Shown here: in pieces, positions 12,887 to 23,512 of the stretch
Layout of the letters: each line of letters opens with the position of its first letter
How positions within the stretch are numbered: position 1 is the first letter of the stretch
DNA from: Opitutia bacterium Tous-C1TDCM
GTDB taxonomy: Bacteria > Verrucomicrobiota > Verrucomicrobiia > Opitutales > Opitutaceae
Assembly (NCBI GenBank): GCA_002288455.1
Contig: NEUS01000020.1
Location: forward strand, 1 to 42,523
DNA length: 42,523 nucleotides
Direction: 5' to 3'
Position numbers and translations under genes: made by a program
The notes under the pieces: model-generated
Seen by the model: the letters and a program-made list of their open reading frames with translations, nothing else
Told to the model about the DNA's origin: nothing
The model's database searches: none

Positions 12887-13984
12887 TCAGGACGCGAGGC
12901 AGCGGACGGACATTTCGCGGAGCACGTCTTCCTGCTCGTGGGAGCGGCGGACGATTTCCTCGAAGGCGGCGATGAATTCCTGCTGGTTGTCGATCAGGCG
13001 TTTCAAGGCGGGCAGTTTGGCGCTGCCGGCGAGTTTGCCGACGTACCAGGCGTTCTGGCTGAAGAGATTGTAGGAGCTCTTCTCGGTCGCGCCGACGAAG
13101 TGCGTGCCGTACAGCGAGGCGGCGCGGGGCAGGCCGTCGAGCCCGCGCGGGCCGAGGCGGGCGGCCCCGGCGTCGACGAGGGCGCGGACCTGGAGCAGGA
13201 TGCGGTTGCGGTTCTGCAGGGCGCTGAGGATCGGGCGGGCGTCGCCGCCGGAGAAGAAATGCCGGTGGAGCGCGGCGAGCGTCCACTTCAGGTCGCCGCT
13301 GAAGAAGGCTTCGGCCGCCTCGAAGAAATCGCCTTCGGCGACGTTGGGCGTGAGTTCGGCGACATGCGCCTCCTCGATGCGCGCGCCTTCGCCGGCGTAC
13401 ATCGCGAGCTTGCGCGTTTCCTCGACGATGAGGCGGGTGTTGGCGCCGACTTTCGCGAGCATCAGCTCGACGGCGCCGGGGGCGAAGGCGGCGCCGAGGG
13501 ATTTCGCCTCGGCGAGCGCGACTCCGGCCAGGGCTTCGCCGGCGCTGTCGGCATCGCCGCCCACGAGGGTGAAGTCGGCGTTTTTCTCGCACCACTTGGG
13601 GAACGAGCGGCGGCGGTCGACGGGCGCGGCCGTGATCAAGATGGCGGTGTCGGCGGGATTGGCGGCGGCGAGCAGGGCCTGCAGATCCTCGACGAGTCTG
13701 AGGGTGCTTTCGGCGCGGCCGGTGACGGAGTCGGCGAGGAAGTTGACGTCCTTCAGCCAGACGAGCCGGCGGCCGCCGAACATCGAGACGGTCTGGACGG
13801 CGTCGCGGAAGCGGTTGATCGCGGATTCGACCTCGCCGACATTGGCGGCGAAGCCGTTGACGGTCTCGCGGGCGAATTCGTCGGTGATTTCGGCGGCGAG
13901 GGCCTCGTAACGTTCCTTGCCGAGGCGGCCGACGAGAAAATCGTCCGCGCCGCCGATGAACGTGAAGGATTTCGCCGGAGCCAT
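12887..13984 (-). CDS. holA: DNA polymerase III subunit delta
   Basis: The ATG at 13984 gives 365 residues, the usual length for HolA. The N-terminal part starts FTFIGGADDFLVGRLGKERY, the family's degenerate AAA+ opening without a P-loop, followed by SMFGGRRLVWLKDVNFL and AILITAAPVDRRRSFPKW. The lid (about 170-215) and C-terminal collar domain (about 225-365, with ALQNRNRILLQVRALVDAG and SYNLFSQNAWYVGKLAG) are complete. Delta opens the beta clamp during clamp loading in the cytoplasm. The gene is divergent from the Ara4N operon; the gap between them holds candidate operator sequences. A start 69 bases upstream exists in frame but adds an Arg/Pro-rich stretch not expected in HolA. Confidence 0.88.
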   Translation of the reverse strand: MAPAKSFTFIGGADDFLVGRLGKERYEALAAEITDEFARETVNGFAANVGEVESAINRFRDAVQTVSMFGGRRLVWLKDVNFLADSVTGRAESTLRLVEDLQALLAAANPADTAILITAAPVDRRRSFPKWCEKNADFTLVGGDADSAGEALAGVALAEAKSLGAAFAPGAVELMLAKVGANTRLIVEETRKLAMYAGEGARIEEAHVAELTPNVAEGDFFEAAEAFFSGDLKWTLAALHRHFFSGGDARPILSALQNRNRILLQVRALVDAGAARLGPRGLDGLPRAASLYGTHFVGATEKSSYNLFSQNAWYVGKLAGSAKLPALKRLIDNQQEFIAAFEEIVRRSHEQEDVLREMSVRCLAS

Positions 13985-14045
13985 GGGGCGGCGGTTATGG
14001 CCCCGGGGCCGCGGCGGCGGCGACAATATTTTCCGCGCGCGGCGA

Positions 14046-14087
14046 ATGAACACGGGTTCATGCGGCGTTCACTCCGCCTTCATGCGG
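14046..14087. promoter_or_regulatory. Candidate operator region upstream of the Ara4N operon
   Basis: A 16-bp near-palindrome ATGAACACGGGTTCAT (14046-14061; arms ATGAAC and GTTCAT perfect) overlaps the first of two exact direct repeats TTCATGCGG (14057-14065 and 14079-14087) spaced 22 bp apart, two helical turns. It lies in the gap between divergent holA and arnT, about 110-150 bases before the arnT start. Regulatory function is an inference; no -35/-10 boxes are obvious in this GC-rich gap. Confidence 0.4.
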
Positions 14088-14196: not shown

Positions 14197-15900
14197 ATGA
14201 CGACGGCGAACGACCCCGGCCCCGCCCCGAGTGCCGCCCGCGATATTCGCTGGCTGCTGCTCGGCTTCGGCCTGCTCTACCTGTTTCTGCTCGGCCGGCT
14301 GCCGCTGGCGAATCCCGACGAATCGCGCTACGCGGAGATTCCGCGCGAGATGCTGGCGCGCGGGGACTGGGTGAGGCCGTACCTGAACGACGTCCCCTAT
14401 TTCGAGAAACCCCCGCTGGTCTATTGGACGGTGGGGTTGGCGCGGACGCTGTTCGGTCCGGGGGAATTTGCGGCGCGGCTGACGCCGGCGCTGTTCGGCC
14501 TGGGCGGCGTGCTGCTGCTGTATGCGGCCGGCCGGAGTTTCGCGGGCCGGCGGGCGGGCCTGTTGGCGGCGGCGGTGCTCGGAACCTCGCTGCTGTACTT
14601 CGGCCTCGCGCGGATTCTGCTGCTCGACATGGCGGTGTCGGTGCTGATGAGCGCGACGCTCGTCTGTTTCTGGCTGGGCGTGCGCGAACCGGCGGGGCGG
14701 AAACGGCAGCTGTTGTTTCTCGGCCTGTATGCGAGCGCGGCGCTGGCGACGTTGGCTAAAGGGCTGATCGGATTTCTGATCCCGGGGGCGGTGATGTTTC
14801 TCTGGCTGCTGATCTTCAACCAATGGGCGCGGCTGCGGCCGTTGCATTTGCCGACGGGCATCGCGCTGTTTCTGGCGCTGGCGGCGCCGTGGCACGTGCT
14901 GGCGGCGCTGCGGCACCCGGAGTGGGCGCAGTTCTATTTTGTGCAGGAGCATTGGGAGCGGTTCACGTCGACGGGCCATTTGCGCGAGGAGCCGGTGTGG
15001 TTTTTCGGGCCGGTGCTGCTGCTGGGATTGATGCCGTGGACGGGGTTTCTGCCGGCGGCGTTGCGGGAGTCGCTGGCCGGGGGCTGGGCGCGGCGGAAGG
15101 AGAATGCGGACGCGTGGTTCTTCGTCACGTGGGCGGCCTTCATTGTGCTCTTCTTCACGAAGTCGCAGTCGAAACTGATCCCGTACATCCTGCCCGCGCT
15201 GCCGCCGCTCGCGCTGCTGGTCGGCGCGTGGCTGGCGCGGCGGTGGGACGAAGGCGCGGCGGCGCGGCCGCGGCTGCGGTTCGGGTTCGGCGCGTGGGCG
15301 TTTTTTGCCGGGCTGCTCGCGGTGGCGCTGATTTTCGCGGTGCTGAAACCGGGGTTGATCCGCGACCCGGCGCAGGTCGCGGCGTTGCGGCCGTATGCGT
15401 TCGGGTTGGCGGCGGTGCTGGCGGCGGGCGGCGTCTTTGCGCCGTGGGCGGCGAAGTTGCGCGGCGCGGCCGCGGGCGTGGGCGCGCTGCTGTTCACGAT
15501 GGCGATATTCTACGGCGGCCTCGTCTTGGCTTCGCCGCATTTCGCGCGGGCGGGAGCGAAGGAACTCGGGCTGGTCGCCCGCGAACGCATCCCGGCCGGC
15601 GAACCCGTTTTCCACTACTGGATGTTTTTGCACGACTTCGTGTACTACAGCGAAAGGCCGGTCGGGCTCGTGGGCTACAAAGACGAATTGCAGATCCAGT
15701 TTCTCGACGCGGAGGAACGCGCGCGCCGCTTCGTCACGGACGCGGAGTTGCGGCGGCGCTGGGCCGGCCCGGAGCGGCTCTGGCTCGTCGTACGCAAACG
15801 CGACCAGCGGCACGCGGAATCGGTCTTCGCGGACGCGGCGTTCCGTTATCATTTGATTGCGGATACGCCGGTTTACAGCCTCCTCAGCAATCGCCCCTGA
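14197..15900 (+). CDS. arnT: ArnT-like aminoarabinose (or related glycosyl) transferase, GT83/PMT fold
   Basis: The ATG at 14197 (MTTAND) gives 567 residues, close to the roughly 550 of enterobacterial ArnT; an upstream ATG at 14098 would add 33 residues before the first helix and is less likely. The protein has about 12 membrane helices. The first periplasmic loop (about 39-68) has NPDESRYAEIPREMLARGDW and YFEKPPLVYW, the catalytic Asp and signature of ArnT/PMT enzymes, and LLLDMAVSVL follows later. ArnT moves Ara4N from undecaprenyl phosphate to lipid A phosphates on the outer face of the inner membrane, lowering charge and sensitivity to cationic peptides. It is the first gene of a seven-gene operon, one base before arnB. 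Confidence 0.9.
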   Translation: MTTANDPGPAPSAARDIRWLLLGFGLLYLFLLGRLPLANPDESRYAEIPREMLARGDWVRPYLNDVPYFEKPPLVYWTVGLARTLFGPGEFAARLTPALFGLGGVLLLYAAGRSFAGRRAGLLAAAVLGTSLLYFGLARILLLDMAVSVLMSATLVCFWLGVREPAGRKRQLLFLGLYASAALATLAKGLIGFLIPGAVMFLWLLIFNQWARLRPLHLPTGIALFLALAAPWHVLAALRHPEWAQFYFVQEHWERFTSTGHLREEPVWFFGPVLLLGLMPWTGFLPAALRESLAGGWARRKENADAWFFVTWAAFIVLFFTKSQSKLIPYILPALPPLALLVGAWLARRWDEGAAARPRLRFGFGAWAFFAGLLAVALIFAVLKPGLIRDPAQVAALRPYAFGLAAVLAAGGVFAPWAAKLRGAAAGVGALLFTMAIFYGGLVLASPHFARAGAKELGLVARERIPAGEPVFHYWMFLHDFVYYSERPVGLVGYKDELQIQFLDAEERARRFVTDAELRRRWAGPERLWLVVRKRDQRHAESVFADAAFRYHLIADTPVYSLLSNRP

Positions 15901-15901
15901 C

Positions 15902-17047
15902 ATGTCCGCGCCCTTTTTGCCCCTCACGCGGCCCACGATCGACGATGCGACCATTGCCGGTGTCGCCGAGGTGCTGCGTTCCGGCTGGATCACGTCCGGG
16001 CCGAAGGTGAAGGAATTCGAGGCGCAGCTCGCCGCGGCCTGCGGCGGGCGGCCGGTGCGCGCCTTCAATTCCGGCACCTGCACGATGGAGATCGCGCTGC
16101 GCATCGCGGGCATCGGGCCGGGGCACGAGGTGATCACGACGCCGTTGTCGTGGGTCGCGACGAGCAACGTCGTTCTCGCGGTCGGCGCGCGGCCGGTCTT
16201 CGTCGATATCGATCCGGTGACGCGGAATCTCGACCTCGACCGCGTCGAGGCCGCGATCACGCCGGCGACGCGCGCGCTGCTGCCCGTAGACCTCGCCGGG
16301 TTGCCGGTCGACCGCGACCGCCTTTACGCGATCGCGCGCCGGCACGGCCTGCGCGTCGTCGAGGACGCGGCCCAGGCCTTCGGCAGCAATTGGCGGGGCC
16401 GCCGCATCGGCACGGAGGGCGATTTCGTTTCCTTCAGTTTCCATCCGAACAAAAACATCACGACGATCGAGGGCGGCGCCCTCGTGCTGAACGACGAGCG
16501 CGAGGCGAAGTTGGCGGAGCAGTATCGCCTGCAGGGTGTGGTGCGTTCGGGCACGGACGGGATGGAAGTCGAGGTCGTCGGCGGGAAATTCAACCTCACC
16601 GATGTCGCCGCGCGCGTGGGCCTCGGGCAGTTGCCGCACTTGGAAACCTTCAACGCCCGCCGCCGCGAATTGGCGCGGGCGTATTTCGCCGCGCTGGCCG
16701 CGCCGGAGGTGGCCGCGCTGGGCCTGGGCCTGCCGCCGGCCGATTTCACCCAGACCAATTGGCACATGTTCCAGGTCGTACTGCCGGAGGAGCGGCTGAC
16801 GGTGCGCCGGGCCGACGTGATGGCGCAGCTGCAGGCGGCGGGCATCGGCAGCGGCGTGCACTATCCGCCGATCCATCTGTTCGCGGTGTACCGCCGGCTG
16901 GGCTGGAAGGAAGGCGACTGCCCGGTCGCGGAGAAAACCGGCCGCAATATCCTGACGTTGCCGCTGTTCCCGGCGATGACGGAGGCCGACGTCGCGCGCG
17001 TCGTCGCGACGCTGGCGGACATCCTGCGGCGCCACGCGAAGCCATGA
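15902..17047 (+). CDS. arnB: ArnB-like UDP-4-keto-sugar aminotransferase (DegT/DnrJ/EryC1 family)
   Basis: A 381-residue PLP enzyme starting one base after the arnT stop. The start FLPLTRPTIDDATIAGVAEVL and the segment SGWITSGPKVKEFE match ArnB closely. Asp155 in VVEDAAQAFG and Lys184 in SFHPNKNITTIEGG are the expected PLP-binding residues; the C terminus has IGSGVHYPPIHLF and LPLFPAMTEAD. ArnB uses glutamate to convert UDP-4-keto-pentose to UDP-4-amino-4-deoxy-L-arabinose in the cytoplasm. Similar aminotransferases act on other keto sugars (for example perosamine or viosamine synthesis), but the neighbours argue for the Ara4N route. It overlaps arnC by ATGA. Confidence 0.88.
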   Translation: MSAPFLPLTRPTIDDATIAGVAEVLRSGWITSGPKVKEFEAQLAAACGGRPVRAFNSGTCTMEIALRIAGIGPGHEVITTPLSWVATSNVVLAVGARPVFVDIDPVTRNLDLDRVEAAITPATRALLPVDLAGLPVDRDRLYAIARRHGLRVVEDAAQAFGSNWRGRRIGTEGDFVSFSFHPNKNITTIEGGALVLNDEREAKLAEQYRLQGVVRSGTDGMEVEVVGGKFNLTDVAARVGLGQLPHLETFNARRRELARAYFAALAAPEVAALGLGLPPADFTQTNWHMFQVVLPEERLTVRRADVMAQLQAAGIGSGVHYPPIHLFAVYRRLGWKEGDCPVAEKTGRNILTLPLFPAMTEADVARVVATLADILRRHAKP

Positions 17048-17997
17048 GCGAGCCCGCCGCGCCGACCGTCGACCTCTCGGTCGTGATCCCCGTCTACAAC
17101 GAGGCGGCGAACCTGCCCCTGCTCTTCGCCCGGCTGTATCCGGTTCTGGATGCGCTGGGCCGCAGCTACGAGGTGATCTTCACCAACGACGGCAGCGCGG
17201 ACGGCTCGCTCGCGCTGCTGCGGGCGCAGCATGCGGCGCGGCCGGACACGACGCGGGTGATCGATTTCAACGCCAACTACGGCCAGCACATGGCGATCAT
17301 GGCGGCCTTCGAGCGGGTGCGCGGGGCGGCGATCGTGACGCTCGACGCCGATCTGCAGAATCCGCCCGAGGAAATCCCGGCGCTGCTCGCGGCGATGGCG
17401 GCGGGGCACGACTATGTCGGCGGGTACCGGCTCGACCGGCAGGATTCGTTTTTCCGCACCTGGGCGTCGCGGCTGATCAACCTCGTGCGCGAGCGCACGA
17501 CCAATATCCGGATGACGGACCAGGGCTGCATGCTGCGCGCGTATTCGCGCGCGATCGTCGACGCGATCGTGGGCAGCGGCGCGGCGAACACCTTCATTCC
17601 GGCGCTGGCGTATACGTTTGCGGCGAAGCCGACGGAGGTGGGCGTGAAGCACGAGGAGCGGCACGCGGGCGTTTCGAACTATTCGCTGTACCGGCTGATC
17701 CGGCTGAACTTCGACCTGATCACGGGCTTCTCGCTGGCGCCGCTGCAGCTGTTCACGATGTTCGCGCTGGCGAGCGCGGCGGGCAGTTTCCTGCTCGTGC
17801 TGGTGCTGGCGGCGCGGCGGATTTTCATCGGGCCGGAGGAAGGCGGGCTGTTCACCCTCTTCGGCATTTTGTTTTTCCTGATCAGCGTGACGATGGTCGG
17901 CATCGGGCTGATCGGCGAGTACGTCGGCCGCGCCTACCAGGTGCTGCGGGCGCGGCAGCGCTACCACGTGCGCGAGTTGCTCGAGGTGAAACGGTGA
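17044..17997 (+). CDS. arnC: ArnC-like undecaprenyl-phosphate 4-deoxy-4-formamido-L-arabinose transferase
   Basis: The 317-residue protein is a GT2 enzyme with two C-terminal membrane helices, as in ArnC and the polyprenyl-phosphate sugar transferases. SVVIPVYNEAANLPLLFARL opens the GT-A domain; NANYGQHMAIMAAFERVRGA and TLDADLQNPPEEIPALL carry the DxD-type metal site; TTNIRMTDQGCMLRAYSRAI and GANTFIPALAY-like segments match ArnC in order. The helices are at about 230-260 and 270-300, ending GLIGEYVGRAYQVLRAR. It attaches formylated Ara4N to undecaprenyl phosphate on the cytoplasmic face. The start overlaps the arnB stop by four bases; a 22-base gap leads to the next glycosyltransferase. Confidence 0.92.
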   Translation: MSEPAAPTVDLSVVIPVYNEAANLPLLFARLYPVLDALGRSYEVIFTNDGSADGSLALLRAQHAARPDTTRVIDFNANYGQHMAIMAAFERVRGAAIVTLDADLQNPPEEIPALLAAMAAGHDYVGGYRLDRQDSFFRTWASRLINLVRERTTNIRMTDQGCMLRAYSRAIVDAIVGSGAANTFIPALAYTFAAKPTEVGVKHEERHAGVSNYSLYRLIRLNFDLITGFSLAPLQLFTMFALASAAGSFLLVLVLAARRIFIGPEEGGLFTLFGILFFLISVTMVGIGLIGEYVGRAYQVLRARQRYHVRELLEVKR

Positions 17998-18019
17998 AAC
18001 GTCCGCAACCCCGGCGCCG

Positions 18020-19324
18020 ATGAAACGCGTCCTCATTGTCTCGCCGCATTTCCCGCCGGTGAACGCGCCCGACATGCAGCGCGTGCGGCTGGCGTTGCCG
18101 CACCTCCGGGCGCAGGGCTGGGAGCCGACCGTGCTCGCGGTCGAGCCCGGCCTGGTCGAGGGCGGCGTGCGGGAGCCGCGGCTGGAAGCGACGTATCCGG
18201 CCGACATCCGCGTGGTCCGGAGCGGCGGCGTCTCCGCCGCGTGGACGCGCTGGGCCGGCGTGGGCAATCTCTGGTGGCGCTGCGGGCGGGCGCTGGCGGC
18301 GGCCGGGGCGGCGGAGCTGGCGGCGCGGCGGCACGACGCGGTGTTGTTCAGCACGACGCAGTTTTCCGCCTTCGGTCTGGGGCCGGGGTGGCGGGAAAAA
18401 TTCGGCGTACCCTACGTGCTCGATTACCAGGATCCTTGGGTGAACGACTACTACGCGCGCACGGGCACGCGGCCGCCGGGCGGACCCTGGAAATACGCGC
18501 TCAGCCAGCGCGGGGCGAAACGCCTCGAGCCGGGGGCGTTGCGCGGGGCGGCCGGCGTGGTCGCCGTGTCCGCGGCCTACGCGGAAATGCTCGGGCGCCT
18601 TTACCCGTGGTTCGATCCGGCGCGGGTGGAGGTGCTGCCGTTCGGCGCGGCGGCGGCGGATTTTGCGGCGCTCGAGGGCTACCGGCCCGCGCAGCCGCTG
18701 ATCGATTTCGACGACGGCAATGTCCACCACGTGTACACGGGCCGCTGCGGTCCGGACATGGCCGGGGCGCTGACGATCGTGTTCCGGGCGCTGGCCCGGT
18801 TCCGGCGCGAGCAGCCGGCGGCCGCCGCGCGGCTTCGCCTCCACTTCATCGGGACCGGCTATGCGCCGCCGCCGCTCGGGGAGGACAGCGTGCTGCCGAT
18901 GGCGCGGGCGGAGGGCGTCGCCGATCAGGTGCGCGAACACCGGTACCGGGTGCCGTACTTCGATACGCTGCATTACCTGCGGCACGCCCATGCGCTGATG
19001 GCGGTCGGTTCCGACGACGCGACGTACGCGGCGTCCAAGATTTTCCCCTACGTGCTGGCCGGCCGGCCGCTGCTGCTGGTGTACCGGCGCGGGAGCGCGG
19101 TGGCGCGGTTCGCGGCGGAGGTCGGCGCGGGTTTCCGGGCGGATTTCGACGCGCCCGGTGACGCCGCCGCCGTCGTCCGCGTGGCGCAGGGCTGGTACGG
19201 CGGTGCCTGCAATTGCGCGGTGCCGGTGGCGGCCGCGGCGTTTGCGCCGTACACGGCGGAGGTGCTGACGGCCCGGCTGGCGCGCGTGCTCGACGCCGCG
19301 GCGGGCGGGCGGCGGGCGAATTGA
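18020..19324 (+). CDS. GT4-like glycosyltransferase of unknown specificity inside the arn operon
   Basis: The 434-residue soluble protein has a GT-B fold signature: an N-terminal Rossmann half beginning KRVLIVSPHFPPVNAPDMQR, a donor-independent segment with VPYVLDYQDPWVNDYYARTG, and a C-terminal half with VHHVYTGRCGPDMAGALTI, then ALMAVGSDDATYAASKIFPY where GT4 enzymes bind the sugar nucleotide, and AGRPLLLVYRRGS. There is no counterpart in the enterobacterial arn operon. It sits between arnC and the arnA formyltransferase gene, with its TGA overlapping the next ATG, so it is clearly part of the operon. It could add a further sugar to lipid A or the inner core, or glycosylate the lipid-linked aminosugar. 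Acceptor and donor are unknown. Confidence 0.75.
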   Translation: MKRVLIVSPHFPPVNAPDMQRVRLALPHLRAQGWEPTVLAVEPGLVEGGVREPRLEATYPADIRVVRSGGVSAAWTRWAGVGNLWWRCGRALAAAGAAELAARRHDAVLFSTTQFSAFGLGPGWREKFGVPYVLDYQDPWVNDYYARTGTRPPGGPWKYALSQRGAKRLEPGALRGAAGVVAVSAAYAEMLGRLYPWFDPARVEVLPFGAAAADFAALEGYRPAQPLIDFDDGNVHHVYTGRCGPDMAGALTIVFRALARFRREQPAAAARLRLHFIGTGYAPPPLGEDSVLPMARAEGVADQVREHRYRVPYFDTLHYLRHAHALMAVGSDDATYAASKIFPYVLAGRPLLLVYRRGSAVARFAAEVGAGFRADFDAPGDAAAVVRVAQGWYGGACNCAVPVAAAAFAPYTAEVLTARLARVLDAAAGGRRAN

Positions 19325-20244
19325 TGCTCCCGGACATGGCCTCTCCCCGCGTGCTTTTTTTCGGATACAGCGAAGTCGGCGCCGAGGCGCTGGCGCTGCT
19401 GCTGGAACGCGGCGTGAACGTCGTCGCGCTCGTGACCCACGAGGACAATCCGAACGAAAAGATCTGGTTCCGGACGCCGGCGGCGGCGGCGCGCGAGCGG
19501 GCGATCCCGGTGTACACGCCCGAGAACGTGAACACGCCGGAATGGCGGACGCGTTTCGCGGCGCTGCAGCCCGACCTGATCCTTTCGGTCTACTACCGCC
19601 ACATGATCGGGACGAAGATTCTGGGGCTGGCGCGGCTCGGGGCGTTCAATTTGCACGGCTCGCTGCTGCCGAAGTACCGCGGGCGGGCGCCGATCAACTG
19701 GGCGGTGCTGCACGGGGAAACGCGCATCGGCATGACGCTGCACCGCATGGTGACGAAGGCGGACGCGGGCGCCGTCGTCGACCGGGAGGGCGTCGAGATC
19801 GGGCCGCGGGACACGGCGGAGCAGGCTTTCCGCAAAGTCCTGCCCTGCGGCCGGCGCGTGCTGGCGCGGCAATTGGACGCGTTGCTGGCGGGCAACGCAC
19901 CGGAGACCCCGCAGGACGAGACGCAGGCGACGTATTTTTCCGGCCGCAAGCCCGAGGACGGCCGCATCGACTGGACGCAGGGCTCGCGGCGGATTTTCAA
20001 CCTGATCCGCGCCGTGACCGATCCGTATCCGGGCGCGTTCGCCGAGATGGCCGGCGGGCGGCTGATGGTGTGGTGGGCGGAACCGGATTCGCCGGCGACG
20101 GCCGGGCGGCGGGGCCGGCCGGGCGAGGTGCTCGGCGTCGATCCGCTCACGGTGGCGACCGGCGACGGCGCCCTTGAATTGACGCGCACCGAGTGGCGCG
20201 GTCCGGGCGCCGCCCCGGTCCTCTCCGCCGGCATGAACCTTTGA
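19324..20244 (+). CDS. arnA: UDP-Ara4N formyltransferase, stand-alone N-terminal half of ArnA
   Basis: The 306-residue protein corresponds to residues 1-300 of E. coli ArnA. The start ATG at 19324 overlaps the previous stop (TGATG); a second ATG at 19336 is possible. GYSEVGAEALALLLERGVNV and VTHEDNPNEKIWF match the folate-binding formyltransferase fold. The catalytic triad is present: Asn109 and His111 in FNLHGSLLPKYRGRAPINW, and Asp147 in TKADAGAVVD. It formylates UDP-Ara4N with 10-formyltetrahydrofolate, a step needed before ArnC. A methionyl-tRNA formyltransferase is excluded by the ArnA-specific pattern and the operon. In Enterobacteria this domain is fused to the decarboxylase; here a 10-base gap separates two genes. 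Confidence 0.9.
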   Translation: MLPDMASPRVLFFGYSEVGAEALALLLERGVNVVALVTHEDNPNEKIWFRTPAAAARERAIPVYTPENVNTPEWRTRFAALQPDLILSVYYRHMIGTKILGLARLGAFNLHGSLLPKYRGRAPINWAVLHGETRIGMTLHRMVTKADAGAVVDREGVEIGPRDTAEQAFRKVLPCGRRVLARQLDALLAGNAPETPQDETQATYFSGRKPEDGRIDWTQGSRRIFNLIRAVTDPYPGAFAEMAGGRLMVWWAEPDSPATAGRRGRPGEVLGVDPLTVATGDGALELTRTEWRGPGAAPVLSAGMNL

Positions 20245-20254
20245 AGACAAAACC

Positions 20255-21316
20255 ATGACCCGTTCCCCGTTCCCGACCCCGCCTCTCCGCATCCTGATTC
20301 TCGGCGCCAACGGCTTCATCGGCAGCTCGCTCACGCGGGCGATCTTGGCGCAGAAGGATTGGGAAGTCTTCGGCATGGATGTCGGGTCGCACAAACTCGC
20401 GGACAGCCTCGGCCACAGCCGGTTCTCGTTTCTAGAAGGCGACATCACGATCAACCGCGAATGGATCGAGTACCACATCAAGAAATGCGACGTCGTGATC
20501 CCGCTCGTCGCGATCGCGAACCCGATCCAGTACGTGCGCGATCCGCTGCGGGTCTTCGAATTGGATTTCGAGGCCAACCTCGAGATCGTGCGGAAGTGCG
20601 CGAAGTACCGGAAGCGGATCATCTTTCCGTCGACCTCCGAGGTTTACGGAATGAGTCCCGACGACGTGCTCGACGAGAATTCGAGCCCCTTGGTTTACGG
20701 GCCGATTGAGCGGCAGCGTTGGATCTACGCCTGTTCGAAGCAGCTGCTCGACCGCGTGATCTATGCCTACGGCGTGCGCGACGGCGTCGACTACACGCTG
20801 TTCCGGCCCTTCAACTGGATCGGGCCGCAGCTCGACGAAGTGATGGAACCGAAGGAAGGCAGTTCGCGGCTGTTCACGCAGTTCATCTCGAACGTGATCT
20901 TCAAGAAACCGCTGCAGCTGGTCGACGGCGGCAGCCAGAGCCGGTCGTTCACCTACATCGACGACGGCATCGATGCGCTCCTGCGCATCATCGAGAACCA
21001 AGGCGGCTGCGCCTCGCGGCAGATCTTCAATCTGGGCAATCCGGCGAACAACGTGACCGTGGCCGATCTCGCGCAGCTGATCATCGCGGCGTTTGCGGAA
21101 TTCCCGGATTACCGCGAGCACGCGGCGGCGGCGCGGACCGTCGAGGTGCCGGCGGAGGCGTATTTCGGCAAGTACTACCAGGACATCCGGCACCGCGTGC
21201 CGTCGATCGCGGCGGCGGAGGCGCGGCTGGGTTGGGAGCCGAAGGTGAATCTGAAGGATGCGATCCGGCGCACGCTCGAGTACCACCTCGCGCACAAAGA
21301 TTACCGGCTGGTCTGA
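20255..21316 (+). CDS. arnA: UDP-glucuronate dehydrogenase/decarboxylase, stand-alone C-terminal half of ArnA
   Basis: A 353-residue NAD-dependent short-chain (epimerase-type) enzyme matching residues 306-660 of E. coli ArnA almost segment by segment: RILILGANGFIGSSLT with the NAD-binding loop, EGDITINREWIEYHIKKCDV, NPLRVFELDFE-like sequence, FPSTSEVYGM with Ser128, Glu129 and Tyr131 (equivalent to Ser433/Glu434 of ArnA), FRPFNWIGPQLD, and YYQDIRHRVPSIAAAEARLG with the conserved Arg. It oxidises and decarboxylates UDP-glucuronic acid to UDP-4-keto-pentose, the substrate of ArnB. The distinctive Glu and Arg separate it from UDP-xylose synthase. It should hexamerise without the formyltransferase half. 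Confidence 0.93.
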   Translation: MTRSPFPTPPLRILILGANGFIGSSLTRAILAQKDWEVFGMDVGSHKLADSLGHSRFSFLEGDITINREWIEYHIKKCDVVIPLVAIANPIQYVRDPLRVFELDFEANLEIVRKCAKYRKRIIFPSTSEVYGMSPDDVLDENSSPLVYGPIERQRWIYACSKQLLDRVIYAYGVRDGVDYTLFRPFNWIGPQLDEVMEPKEGSSRLFTQFISNVIFKKPLQLVDGGSQSRSFTYIDDGIDALLRIIENQGGCASRQIFNLGNPANNVTVADLAQLIIAAFAEFPDYREHAAAARTVEVPAEAYFGKYYQDIRHRVPSIAAAEARLGWEPKVNLKDAIRRTLEYHLAHKDYRLV

Positions 21317-21325
21317 GCGAAAACC

Positions 21326-22240
21326 GTGCAACTCGCGCTCAAGGTCGACGTCGATACGGACCGCGGTACCCGCGAGGGCGTGCCGAACCTGGTCGCGGAA
21401 TGCCGGGCGGCGGGCGTGCCGGCGGCGTTTTTGTTTTCACTGGGGCCGGACCAGACGGGGCGCGCGATCACGCGCGTGCTGCGGCCGGGTTTTTTCCGGA
21501 AAGTCAGCCGCACGAGCGTGCTGGAACTGTACGGGCTGCGCACCTTGCTCAACGGCACGCTGCTGCCGGCGCCGCACATCGGGCGGCGCAATGCCGCGAC
21601 GCTGCGCGCCGTGCGCGACGCGGGTTTCGAAATCGGGATCCATGGTTTCAACCATTACCGCTGGCAGGATCATCTCGCGCGCATGACGCCGGCGGAGACG
21701 GCGGCGGAGTTCGGCGCCGCGCGGGCGGAGTTTCGCCGGATTTTCGGGAACGAGGCGCGGACGGCGGGGGCGGCGGGTTGGCAGAGCAACGCGGCCAGCC
21801 GGGCGGCCTACGACGGCGCGGATTTGCTCTACGGCAGCGACACGCGGGGCGAGGTGCCGTTTTTCCCGCGGCACGGTGGGCGGGTGTTCCGCACGCTCGA
21901 GATGCCGACGACGTTGCCGACCTTGGACGAATTGATGGGCCGGCCGGAATTTCCCGACACGGCCATCGTGCCGCACCTGTTGGCGAGCCTGCGGGCGGAT
22001 CGGCTCAACGTGTTTACGTTGCATGCGGAAATCGAAGGCATGGGGAGGCGGCAGCTGTTCCGCGACTTCTTGGCTGGGGCGAAAGCAGGCGGCGTGGAGT
22101 TCGTGCGGCTCGAAGAGGCGGCGCGGCGAATCTTGGAAAAACGGGATTCGGTGCCGGTGATCGATCAGGGTTACGCCGAGATCGATGGCCGCAGCGGCAC
22201 GGTGGCCGTGCCGCTGCCGGCGCCGGGCGCCGGCGGTTGA
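21326..22240 (+). CDS. arnD: ArnD-like undecaprenyl-phosphate formamido-arabinose deformylase
   Basis: The GTG at 21326, nine bases after the previous stop, gives 304 residues, the size of ArnD. It is a NodB-type polysaccharide deacetylase: KVDVDTDRGTREGVPNLVAE carries the metal Asp pair, GIHGFNHYRWQDHLARM the His ligands, GAAGWQSNAASRAAYDG and LYGSDTRGEVPF are ArnD-specific, and FTLHAEIEGMGRRQLF contains the last conserved His. ArnD removes the formyl group once the sugar is on undecaprenyl phosphate, making the step irreversible. It is the last gene of the operon; its TGA is part of a GTTGAAA repeat unit. Confidence 0.92.
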   Translation: MQLALKVDVDTDRGTREGVPNLVAECRAAGVPAAFLFSLGPDQTGRAITRVLRPGFFRKVSRTSVLELYGLRTLLNGTLLPAPHIGRRNAATLRAVRDAGFEIGIHGFNHYRWQDHLARMTPAETAAEFGAARAEFRRIFGNEARTAGAAGWQSNAASRAAYDGADLLYGSDTRGEVPFFPRHGGRVFRTLEMPTTLPTLDELMGRPEFPDTAIVPHLLASLRADRLNVFTLHAEIEGMGRRQLFRDFLAGAKAGGVEFVRLEEAARRILEKRDSVPVIDQGYAEIDGRSGTVAVPLPAPGAGG

Positions 22241-22337: not shown

Positions 22338-22364
22338 GCCGAAAGGCCGCCGCGGCCTTCCGGC
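22338..22364 (-). terminator. Hairpin directly after the lptG-like stop
   Basis: Twelve-base arms GCCGAAAGGCCG (22338-22349) and CGGCCTTCCGGC (22353-22364) pair with one mismatch around a three-base loop. On the minus strand the stem begins at the TAG stop (22366-22364) and is followed by the repeat array rather than a T run, so it may act as a terminator with Rho help or as an mRNA 3' end stabiliser. Confidence 0.6.
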
Positions 22365-23512
22365 TAGCGGCGGTCGATGCGCGAGAAGAGCCAGAGACCG
22401 AGGCCGATGAAGGCGAGGTTGGGCAGCCAGAGCAGCAGCTCGGGGTGGAGCGCGGGCCGTTCGTCGAGGGCCTTGATCATGACGGTGAGCAGGTAGAAAC
22501 CGAGGACGAGGCCGAGGGCGAGGCCGAGGTTGGCGGAGGTTTCGCGGCGCGAGACCTTGATGCCGAGGGGCACGCCGATGAGGGCGAAGGAGAGGACGGC
22601 GAGGGACAGGTTGAAGCGTTCCTGCAGAATCAATTTCGATTCCGTGATTTTCCGGAAATGCTCTTTCTGCTCGGCGGGCGGCGGCAACGGCGCGGCGGCG
22701 AGGCGGGCCTGTTCGGCGCGCAGGTCCTCGAGCGGCATCCAGTCGATTTTCATCCGGTAGTTTTTCCGGCTGAGGTAGCCGTCGAGCGGGATGCGCAGAT
22801 CGGCGGCTTTGTCCACGGAGGGAGCGCGCGGAGATTTCGAGAAATCCTCGGGGTTGTCGGAATCGCGTTCCTCGGTTTTCGCGCGCAGCAAAGTCGGCAC
22901 GAGGCTGTTCGTCGCTTCGTCGTAATCGATGCGGCCGGATTCGGCGCGGACGAGGCGCTGCACGCGGCGCTGGCTGTCGAGTTCCCAAAGCCAAATGTCG
23001 CGGAGCACGTTGCCCTGTTTTTCGCCGACGTAGATGACGCTGTCCTTGAAATCCCGGATGAAGGTTTTCGGCACGATGAAGTTGAGGGGATTGGCGCGGA
23101 CGGCGGCGGCGAGTTCGCGCTGGAATTCCATGCGGGCGCGGGGGCTGGCCTCGAGGTTGATGTAGAGGGCGAGGGCGGCGCCGGCGCCGCCGAGCAGAAA
23201 CACCGGCCGCGCGATGCGGAAGAGGCTGAGGCCGGCGGAGCGCATCGCGGTGATCTCGGAATCGGCGGAGAGACGGCCGAGGGTGAGCAGCACGCCGGTG
23301 AGCATGCCGGACGGCAGGGCGTAGCAGATGCCGAAAACAAAGATGAGCCAGACGAGGTGGGCGAAGGTGCCGAAGCTGATGGTGCCGGCGAGCAGCGGGC
23401 CGAGCAGTTCCTTCACGACGCTCGGCAGCGCCACGACGAAGGCGAACAGGCCGACGGCCGCCGCGCAGGTGGCGAGCACGCTGACGAAGAGGTGGCGGTC
23501 GAGGAGGTTCAA
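22364..23512 (-). CDS. LptF/LptG-family (YjgP/YjgQ) permease
   Basis: The frame has no ATG near the expected N terminus; a TTG at 23512 (TTG-AAC, protein LNLLDRHLFVSVLATC) fits the family start and gives 382 residues. Three or four N-terminal helices include GICYALPSGMLTGVLLTLGR and LSADSEITAMRSAGLSLFRI, the family signature that contacts LptB. A periplasmic beta-jellyroll region (about 130-270) precedes two or three C-terminal helices (FNLSLAVLSFALIGVPLGIK, SANLGLALGLVLGFYLLTVM). LptF and LptG together extract lipopolysaccharide from the inner membrane. Only one of the two is here, and I cannot say which. Its place next to the Ara4N operon fits an outer-membrane lipid role. Confidence 0.85.
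   Translation of the reverse strand: MNLLDRHLFVSVLATCAAAVGLFAFVVALPSVVKELLGPLLAGTISFGTFAHLVWLIFVFGICYALPSGMLTGVLLTLGRLSADSEITAMRSAGLSLFRIARPVFLLGGAGAALALYINLEASPRARMEFQRELAAAVRANPLNFIVPKTFIRDFKDSVIYVGEKQGNVLRDIWLWELDSQRRVQRLVRAESGRIDYDEATNSLVPTLLRAKTEERDSDNPEDFSKSPRAPSVDKAADLRIPLDGYLSRKNYRMKIDWMPLEDLRAEQARLAAAPLPPPAEQKEHFRKITESKLILQERFNLSLAVLSFALIGVPLGIKVSRRETSANLGLALGLVLGFYLLTVMIKALDERPALHPELLLWLPNLAFIGLGLWLFSRIDRR

Follow-up and report, generated by a model that had tools for sequence, protein, structure and literature searches.

A probable Burkholderia-type, unfused arn operon in an Opitutaceae bacterium and its fused counterparts elsewhere in Verrucomicrobiota

Positions 14197 to 22240 of the window, by which we mean the whole stretch of 42,523 nucleotides analysed here (contig C74 of the host assembly), hold seven open reading frames (ORFs) on one strand, encoding in order ArnT (T), ArnB (B), ArnC (C), a GT4-like glycosyltransferase, the formyltransferase half of ArnA (F), its dehydrogenase/decarboxylase half (H) and ArnD (D). 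Based on sequence comparison, and with a probability of about 0.85, this locus is likely an arn operon of the unfused Burkholderia type, carried by an Opitutaceae bacterium and making and transferring 4-amino-4-deoxy-L-arabinose (Ara4N). The operon is real and mostly ordinary; the part worth keeping is that, across the phylum, split ArnA contrasts with fused ArnA while a recognisable flippase is lacking. The host, a metagenome-assembled genome of 4.15 Mb and 85.8% completeness, belongs to Opitutaceae and is thus a verrucomicrobium, as the initial annotation had supposed. That annotation also held Ara4N to be little described in this phylum, in agreement with our literature search, which by title turned up nothing on verrucomicrobial Ara4N.

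Operon layout and enzyme identities

The seven arn-type genes are as tightly packed as first described, and their ORFs and coordinates were borne out. From T to D the junctions measure 1, -4, 22, -4, 10 and 9 bases, so that gaps do not exceed 22 bases and some genes overlap, the second -4 assuming that F starts at the TTG at 19321 and not at the alternative ATG codons at 19324 or 19336. F and H are indeed separate ORFs with 10 bases between them; a frame check also called them split, and the locus lacks the fused PRK08125 form.

Families were called with NCBIfam and Pfam profiles, and T, B, F, H, D and the GT4-like protein were compared with the sequences of solved structures in the PDB. F (19321-20244, plus strand like the whole operon) scores above the cut-off of a stand-alone family, PRK06988 (414.9 vs 316 bits), and H (20255-21316) above that of another, PRK11908 (576.2 vs 294 bits). 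They are assigned to a stand-alone UDP-Ara4N formyltransferase of the ArnA1 type, equivalent to the N-terminal half of ArnA (ArnA-FT, 2.4e-78), and to a stand-alone UDP-glucuronate C4-oxidase/decarboxylase of the ArnA2/U4kpxs type, equivalent to its C-terminal half. The best solved relative of H is PbgP3 (3slg, a stand-alone dehydrogenase chain of 372 residues; 5.8e-133), the E. coli-type ArnA scoring 2.3e-124. The arn families are the top NCBIfam match of T, B, C and D. B (15902-17047, 381 aa) is an ArnB-like aminotransferase dependent on pyridoxal phosphate whose best solved relative, 4lc3 (5.8e-173), is named a UDP-Ara4N aminotransferase and reaches 578 bits vs 213 for the best perosamine synthetase, the next ArnB in the PDB being 1mdo (2.1e-77); this difference sides with the initial annotation in placing the genes with arn rather than with other sugar pathways. 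We take both 4lc3 and 3slg to be Burkholderia proteins. T (14197-15900, 567 aa) is an ArnT-like GT83 Ara4N transferase, C (17044-17997, 317 aa) an ArnC-like undecaprenyl-phosphate glycosyltransferase of family GT2, 46% identical to E. coli ArnC, and D (21326-22240, 304 aa) an ArnD-like deformylase of undecaprenyl-phosphate (Und-P)-linked formylated Ara4N (PDB 8t0j, an ArnD, 7.7e-47).

Alignment to E. coli K-12 showed that N110, H112 and D148 of F and S128, E129, Y158, K162 and R314 of H are kept, and that Lys184 of B aligns with E. coli Lys188, all of them residues that we presume to be catalytic. A motif check found RYA at positions 44-46 and YFEKP at 68-72 of T, motifs whose residues are needed by ArnT according to passages of PMC5377068. 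The claim that catalytic residues are intact therefore holds for these four enzymes.

Among known systems, B. cenocepacia resembles the window in encoding the formyltransferase and the dehydrogenase separately (ArnA1, BCAL1933; ArnA2, BCAL1934), both being required for Ara4N as stated in parts of PMC3123600. The operon on plasmid 2 of Variovorax sp. RA8 likewise has separate F and H and the enzyme order T-B-C-F-H-D, but inserts a gene for an SMR-family transporter between T and B (T-SMR-B-C-F-H-D), where the window has one base; the window in turn carries its GT4 insert at the C-F junction. E. coli K-12 arnBCADTEF encodes the same six-step enzyme set, at 28-54% identity, but differs by its fused ArnA, its order B-C-A-D-T-E-F and its flippase subunits ArnE and ArnF.

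Proposed pathway, acceptor and flippase

In the pathway that we propose, UDP-glucuronate would be supplied by a nucleotide-sugar dehydrogenase encoded on another contig (C81 of the same assembly, over the TIGR03026 cut-off), a Ugd candidate. H would oxidise and decarboxylate UDP-glucuronate to a UDP-4-keto-pentose, B would aminate this product to UDP-Ara4N, F would formylate it, C would load the formylated sugar on Und-P, and D would deformylate the lipid-linked sugar. The lipid carrier would then be flipped by a protein other than a recognisable ArnE/F pair, and ArnT would transfer Ara4N in the periplasm to lipid A or to the inner core. Hence the operon deserves to be called complete, as it was in the initial annotation, for its six enzyme steps, but not for a flippase gene, which is missing at the locus, nor for Ugd, whose candidate lies on another contig. 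The host assembly contains LpxC (PF03331) and PF04413 genes over cut-off, the latter presumably corresponding to the KdtA/WaaA N-terminal domain, and on these would be equipped for lipid A with 3-deoxy-D-manno-oct-2-ulosonic acid (Kdo). If expressed, the operon probably adds a positively charged sugar to a lipid of the outer membrane; that lipid A carries Ara4N and that the host tolerates polymyxin are predictions derived from it.

The identity of the acceptor leaves room for a different reading, in which ArnT hands Ara4N or a related 4-amino pentose not to lipid A but, for instance, to Kdo or D-glycero-D-talo-oct-2-ulosonic acid (Ko) of the inner core or to another glycolipid, a reading that partly overlaps ours since ours allows the inner core. 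T shares just 28% identity with E. coli ArnT across 410 residues and scores below the cut-off of PF18583 (Arnt_C), the convergent neighbour of the operon is a lipopolysaccharide (LPS)-export permease, and B. cenocepacia also puts Ara4N on its inner core according to passages of PMC5377068 and PMC3123600. Nevertheless, the sole solved relative found for T (PDB 5ezm, 3.4e-58) is an ArnT, and T retains both RYA and YFEKP, so that we regard such a non-lipid A acceptor as rather unlikely, while giving it some weight.

Several observations weigh against a Burkholderia-type operon that makes and transfers Ara4N. First, T (PRK13279, 1.4e-68), B (PRK11658, 5.6e-93), C (PRK10714, 1.4e-94) and D (PRK15394, 4.6e-61) all score under the NCBIfam equivalog cut-offs, and B is in a near tie with PseC (2.5e-92), itself below cut-off. 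Second, no ArnE, ArnF or SMR gene lies at any of the 27 T-B junctions of the Opitutaceae group (gaps of -1 to 118 bases between matches), a group defined as the loci of the window's family or with Opitutaceae-like titles and amounting to 46 unique loci when identical H genes are counted once. Moreover, a genome-wide search with E. coli ArnE gave no match at E <= 0.1 in the host assembly (G000, 86% complete) or in G007, G022 and G198, ArnF and the Variovorax SMR protein not having been run genome-wide. Third, H has no match at E <= 1e-60 in 30 of 57 genomes, own included (6 of 27 within the genus), some of them incomplete; given these 30 genomes, the Ara4N system looks dispensable. Finally, six loci (L035, L036, L040, L042, L047 and L054) hold F-H-D with no T-B-C in at least 7 kb upstream of F, the rest of those genomes not having been searched. 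From these six loci, in two of which (L035 and L036) opposite-strand ORF calls in GC-rich stretches were left out, the C-F junction seems to be a point of break and insertion.

Outside the Opitutaceae group, an SMR/ArnE-type gene lies between T and B in 28 of 33 non-verrucomicrobial junctions, and is absent from the T-B junction of both the one split Limisphaerales locus and the one fused verrucomicrobial locus. Ten fused verrucomicrobial loci have no ArnE/F-type gene on the stretches examined; a fused gammaproteobacterial locus has one. Genome-wide, E. coli ArnE gave one weak match, in G029 (E 0.028), and a diverged SMR gene may lie elsewhere in the genome.

Conservation and genomic setting in Opitutaceae

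All six enzymes occur in the order T-B-C-F-H-D in 26 of the 46 unique Opitutaceae-group loci, and many others end at contig edges. The site itself is also conserved. Downstream and outside of the operon, a convergent gene encodes an LptF/LptG LPS-export permease (22364-23494, minus strand; PF03739, 9.3e-65; LptF model, 8.5e-45, below cut-off), and 27 of the 36 group loci with enough sequence have such a gene, likewise convergent, no more than 2.5 kb from arnD. Upstream, a divergent gene encodes a holA-like DNA polymerase III delta subunit (12887-14053, minus strand; PF06144, 5.8e-06), and 9 of the 21 loci long enough to tell have holA no more than 2 kb upstream of arnT. In G018, which has no H match, the holA and lptF matches stand 104 bases apart with no arn genes between them, forming an empty site. 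Other arn-negative genomes examined comprise G002, in which holA and lptF are about 1.6 kb apart, G001, which has no holA within the 4.4 kb examined, and eight in which holA was not found near lptF. In B. cenocepacia, the abstract of PMC5377068 ties Ara4N to LPS export; that the LptF/LptG neighbour reflects a similar link here is, by analogy, a thought and not a result.

Relatives of the operon carry inserts at their C-F and F-H junctions, and the GT4-like gene (18020-19324, plus strand, 434 aa) is a lineage-specific insert of the C-F kind. Its product exceeds the cut-off of PF13439 (29.8 vs 28.5 bits) and has no NCBIfam or PDB match at 0.001. The initial annotation counted it among the operon's members, which is right for its position in the cluster but not for its conservation. 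GT4 was rejected as a general pathway enzyme, being present in 4 of the 46 unique loci, and two other C-F inserts carry different genes, both L039 and L041 having a tricorn-like protease encoded on the opposite strand, and L041 a pilin-like protein as well.

Patchy presence among relatives, the empty site of G018 and the inserts at both junctions could also betray a decaying operon or a mobile remnant. We hold this to be quite improbable in view of the seven intact frames with their residues kept and of the arnD-lptF synteny in 27 of 36 loci. A scan of viral contigs for ArnD relatives found none.

A separate locus in G020 (L038:2399-15118) bears a second copy of H. Its neighbours are an ArnT-like protein (49%), a sensor kinase, a response regulator, a PF00884 membrane protein and an RND pump, whereas B, C, F and D are all absent. 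The sulfatase fold of the PF00884 protein is, we assume, that of EptA-type phosphoethanolamine transferases, and the locus looks like an envelope-modification island.

Split and fused forms of ArnA

The separation of ArnA into two genes, singled out as unusual in the initial annotation, is the ordinary and already known form. Our sample consisted of the best 80 of 573 confirmed loci, which favours relatives of the window and is uninformative on distant fused forms. Both F and H are present at 60% coverage in 63 of these loci, and all 63 are split and none fused, with the order F-H in 55 and H-F in 8; they come from Opitutaceae, Proteobacteria and Nitrospirota, with a single myxococcal locus. 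The remaining 17 are without one half at this coverage, several at contig ends. NCBIfam holds families for both stand-alone halves. A 2025 study (PMC12650200) reports, in the passages relevant here, fused ArnA in 39 of 1299 species, holds separation to be ancestral and places the fusion exclusively in Pseudomonadota, its methods naming 1105 bacterial species. It is because of the 63 split loci, the published arnA1 and arnA2 of B. cenocepacia (PMC3123600, in part) and the majority form in that species sample that the split cannot count as a peculiarity of the window. As a side observation, six proteobacterial loci (L101, L104, L107, L110, L114 and L130) show C-H, mostly also with B and T, and no F or D match; these may encode a route to a 4-amino pentose that skips formylation.

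Fused ArnA is nonetheless widespread elsewhere in the window's phylum. E. coli ArnA served as the query against 387 verrucomicrobial genomes, a sample of a larger group, a fused call requiring the same frame and no stop between the halves. Open-frame length was rejected as a sign of fusion, high-GC frames being long by chance (G007 has a frame of 663 aa, yet F and H are split). Matches at E <= 1e-80 were found in 96 genomes, 73 of which span residues 1 (one from 2) to at least 651 at one place; with the internal stop of G379 discounted, 72 carry a full-length fused ArnA. These carriers are distributed over 14 family codes, which include neither the window's family nor any other family of its order. 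Within the window's family 16 genomes matched, every one of them split. Two further matches end at contig edges (G213 and G390), and the others have H only (G142, whose stretch contains C and H but no F, and G154), H without F at the locus (G384 and G051) or a weak F with a stop (G354). A direct frame check called 42 of 42 fused-kind loci fused (L147-L158 and L169-L198, from 40 genomes), the other full-length rows resting on the ArnA search alone. The full-length verrucomicrobial matches are 58-64% identical to E. coli ArnA. Of 185 gammaproteobacterial genomes sampled, 21 matched at E <= 1e-100 and one was full-length without a stop. Contamination is unlikely as a general cause of the verrucomicrobial fused genes, since they largely cluster by family code and form their own clade, and since one carrier, G198, is a single contig. 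Fused ArnA in many Verrucomicrobiota contrasts with the Pseudomonadota-only statement in PMC12650200, as far as the relevant passages of that study go. The fused-type operons share with the window its phylum, its pathway and, in 10 loci examined, the lack of an ArnE/F-type gene, but differ by a distinct lineage of both halves and by gene order, which was B-C-A-D in each of the 4 loci, out of the 10, that had matches to both B and C.

Trees were built for H (74 rows, rooted on short-chain dehydrogenase/reductase (SDR) paralogues), for F (62 rows, rooted on Fmt) and for the joined halves (46 rows). In the H tree, the 18 fused rows form one clade (100/100), and Opitutaceae (81/84) stand beside four proteobacterial split rows (85/99). 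In the F tree, the fused rows again form one clade (85/88), and Opitutaceae (100/99) lie beside the split Limisphaerales locus (95/88). Both halves of the window thus group with split relatives, and the fused or split state changes once on each tree. The joined tree recovers the fused rows (100/100), with Verrucomicrobiota (95/91) and Enterobacterales (100/98) within them, the fused forms of both groups constituting one clade. The placement of a further gammaproteobacterial fused row, G603, varies: the F tree nests it weakly within Verrucomicrobiota, the H tree puts it at the base of all fused rows, and the joined tree makes it a neighbour of Verrucomicrobiota (90/83). An approximately unbiased (AU) test of whether the proteobacterial fused rows, only 5 of which were sampled, form one clade gave a p-AU of 0.216. 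Four proteobacterial rows (L084, L088, L094 and L113) are placed differently by F and H, so the two halves have at times moved separately. In the H tree, the sister of the fused rows is a myxococcal split locus, L120 (99/95); its F and H matches are 2 bases apart (L120:9090-11005), and it is a possible near-intermediate of the fusion.

That the split of Opitutaceae is secondary, a fused arnA inherited within Verrucomicrobiota having been broken apart, is extremely improbable: fused genes are common in other parts of the phylum, and F and H share one frame with a stop between them in G171 and several other split loci, but a clade of Opitutaceae with the verrucomicrobial fused rows is rejected under the model used (p-AU 2.6e-7 for H and 1.6e-105 for F, on quick trees of 56 rows each) and the usual operon order differs between the two kinds of loci. 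The suggestion that the unfused arrangement is ancestral fits the single change on both trees and the nesting of the fused rows beside split ones in the H tree, as well as the published view, but most arnA-bearing Verrucomicrobiota sampled are fused and of another lineage than the window's. The root behind this fit is not firm, the H tree being rooted on a remote SDR outgroup with a branch length of 10 and the F tree leaving the order of L120, fused and split rows unsettled.

Taken further, and tentatively, at somewhat less than even odds, Verrucomicrobiota might possess two separately derived Ara4N systems, an unfused one of the Burkholderia type in Opitutaceae and a fused one of the E. coli type in at least 14 other families. 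Neither would use ArnE/F, which would imply an undiscovered Und-P-Ara4N flippase, and a single ArnA fusion would be shared with Gammaproteobacteria by transfer in either direction.

The comparison with verrucomicrobial relatives matters more than the operon of the window itself. It raises the question of which protein carries Und-P-Ara4N across the membrane in Verrucomicrobiota. Many environmental ArnAs are now on hand for comparative enzymology, and where and how often the ArnA fusion arose may need revision.

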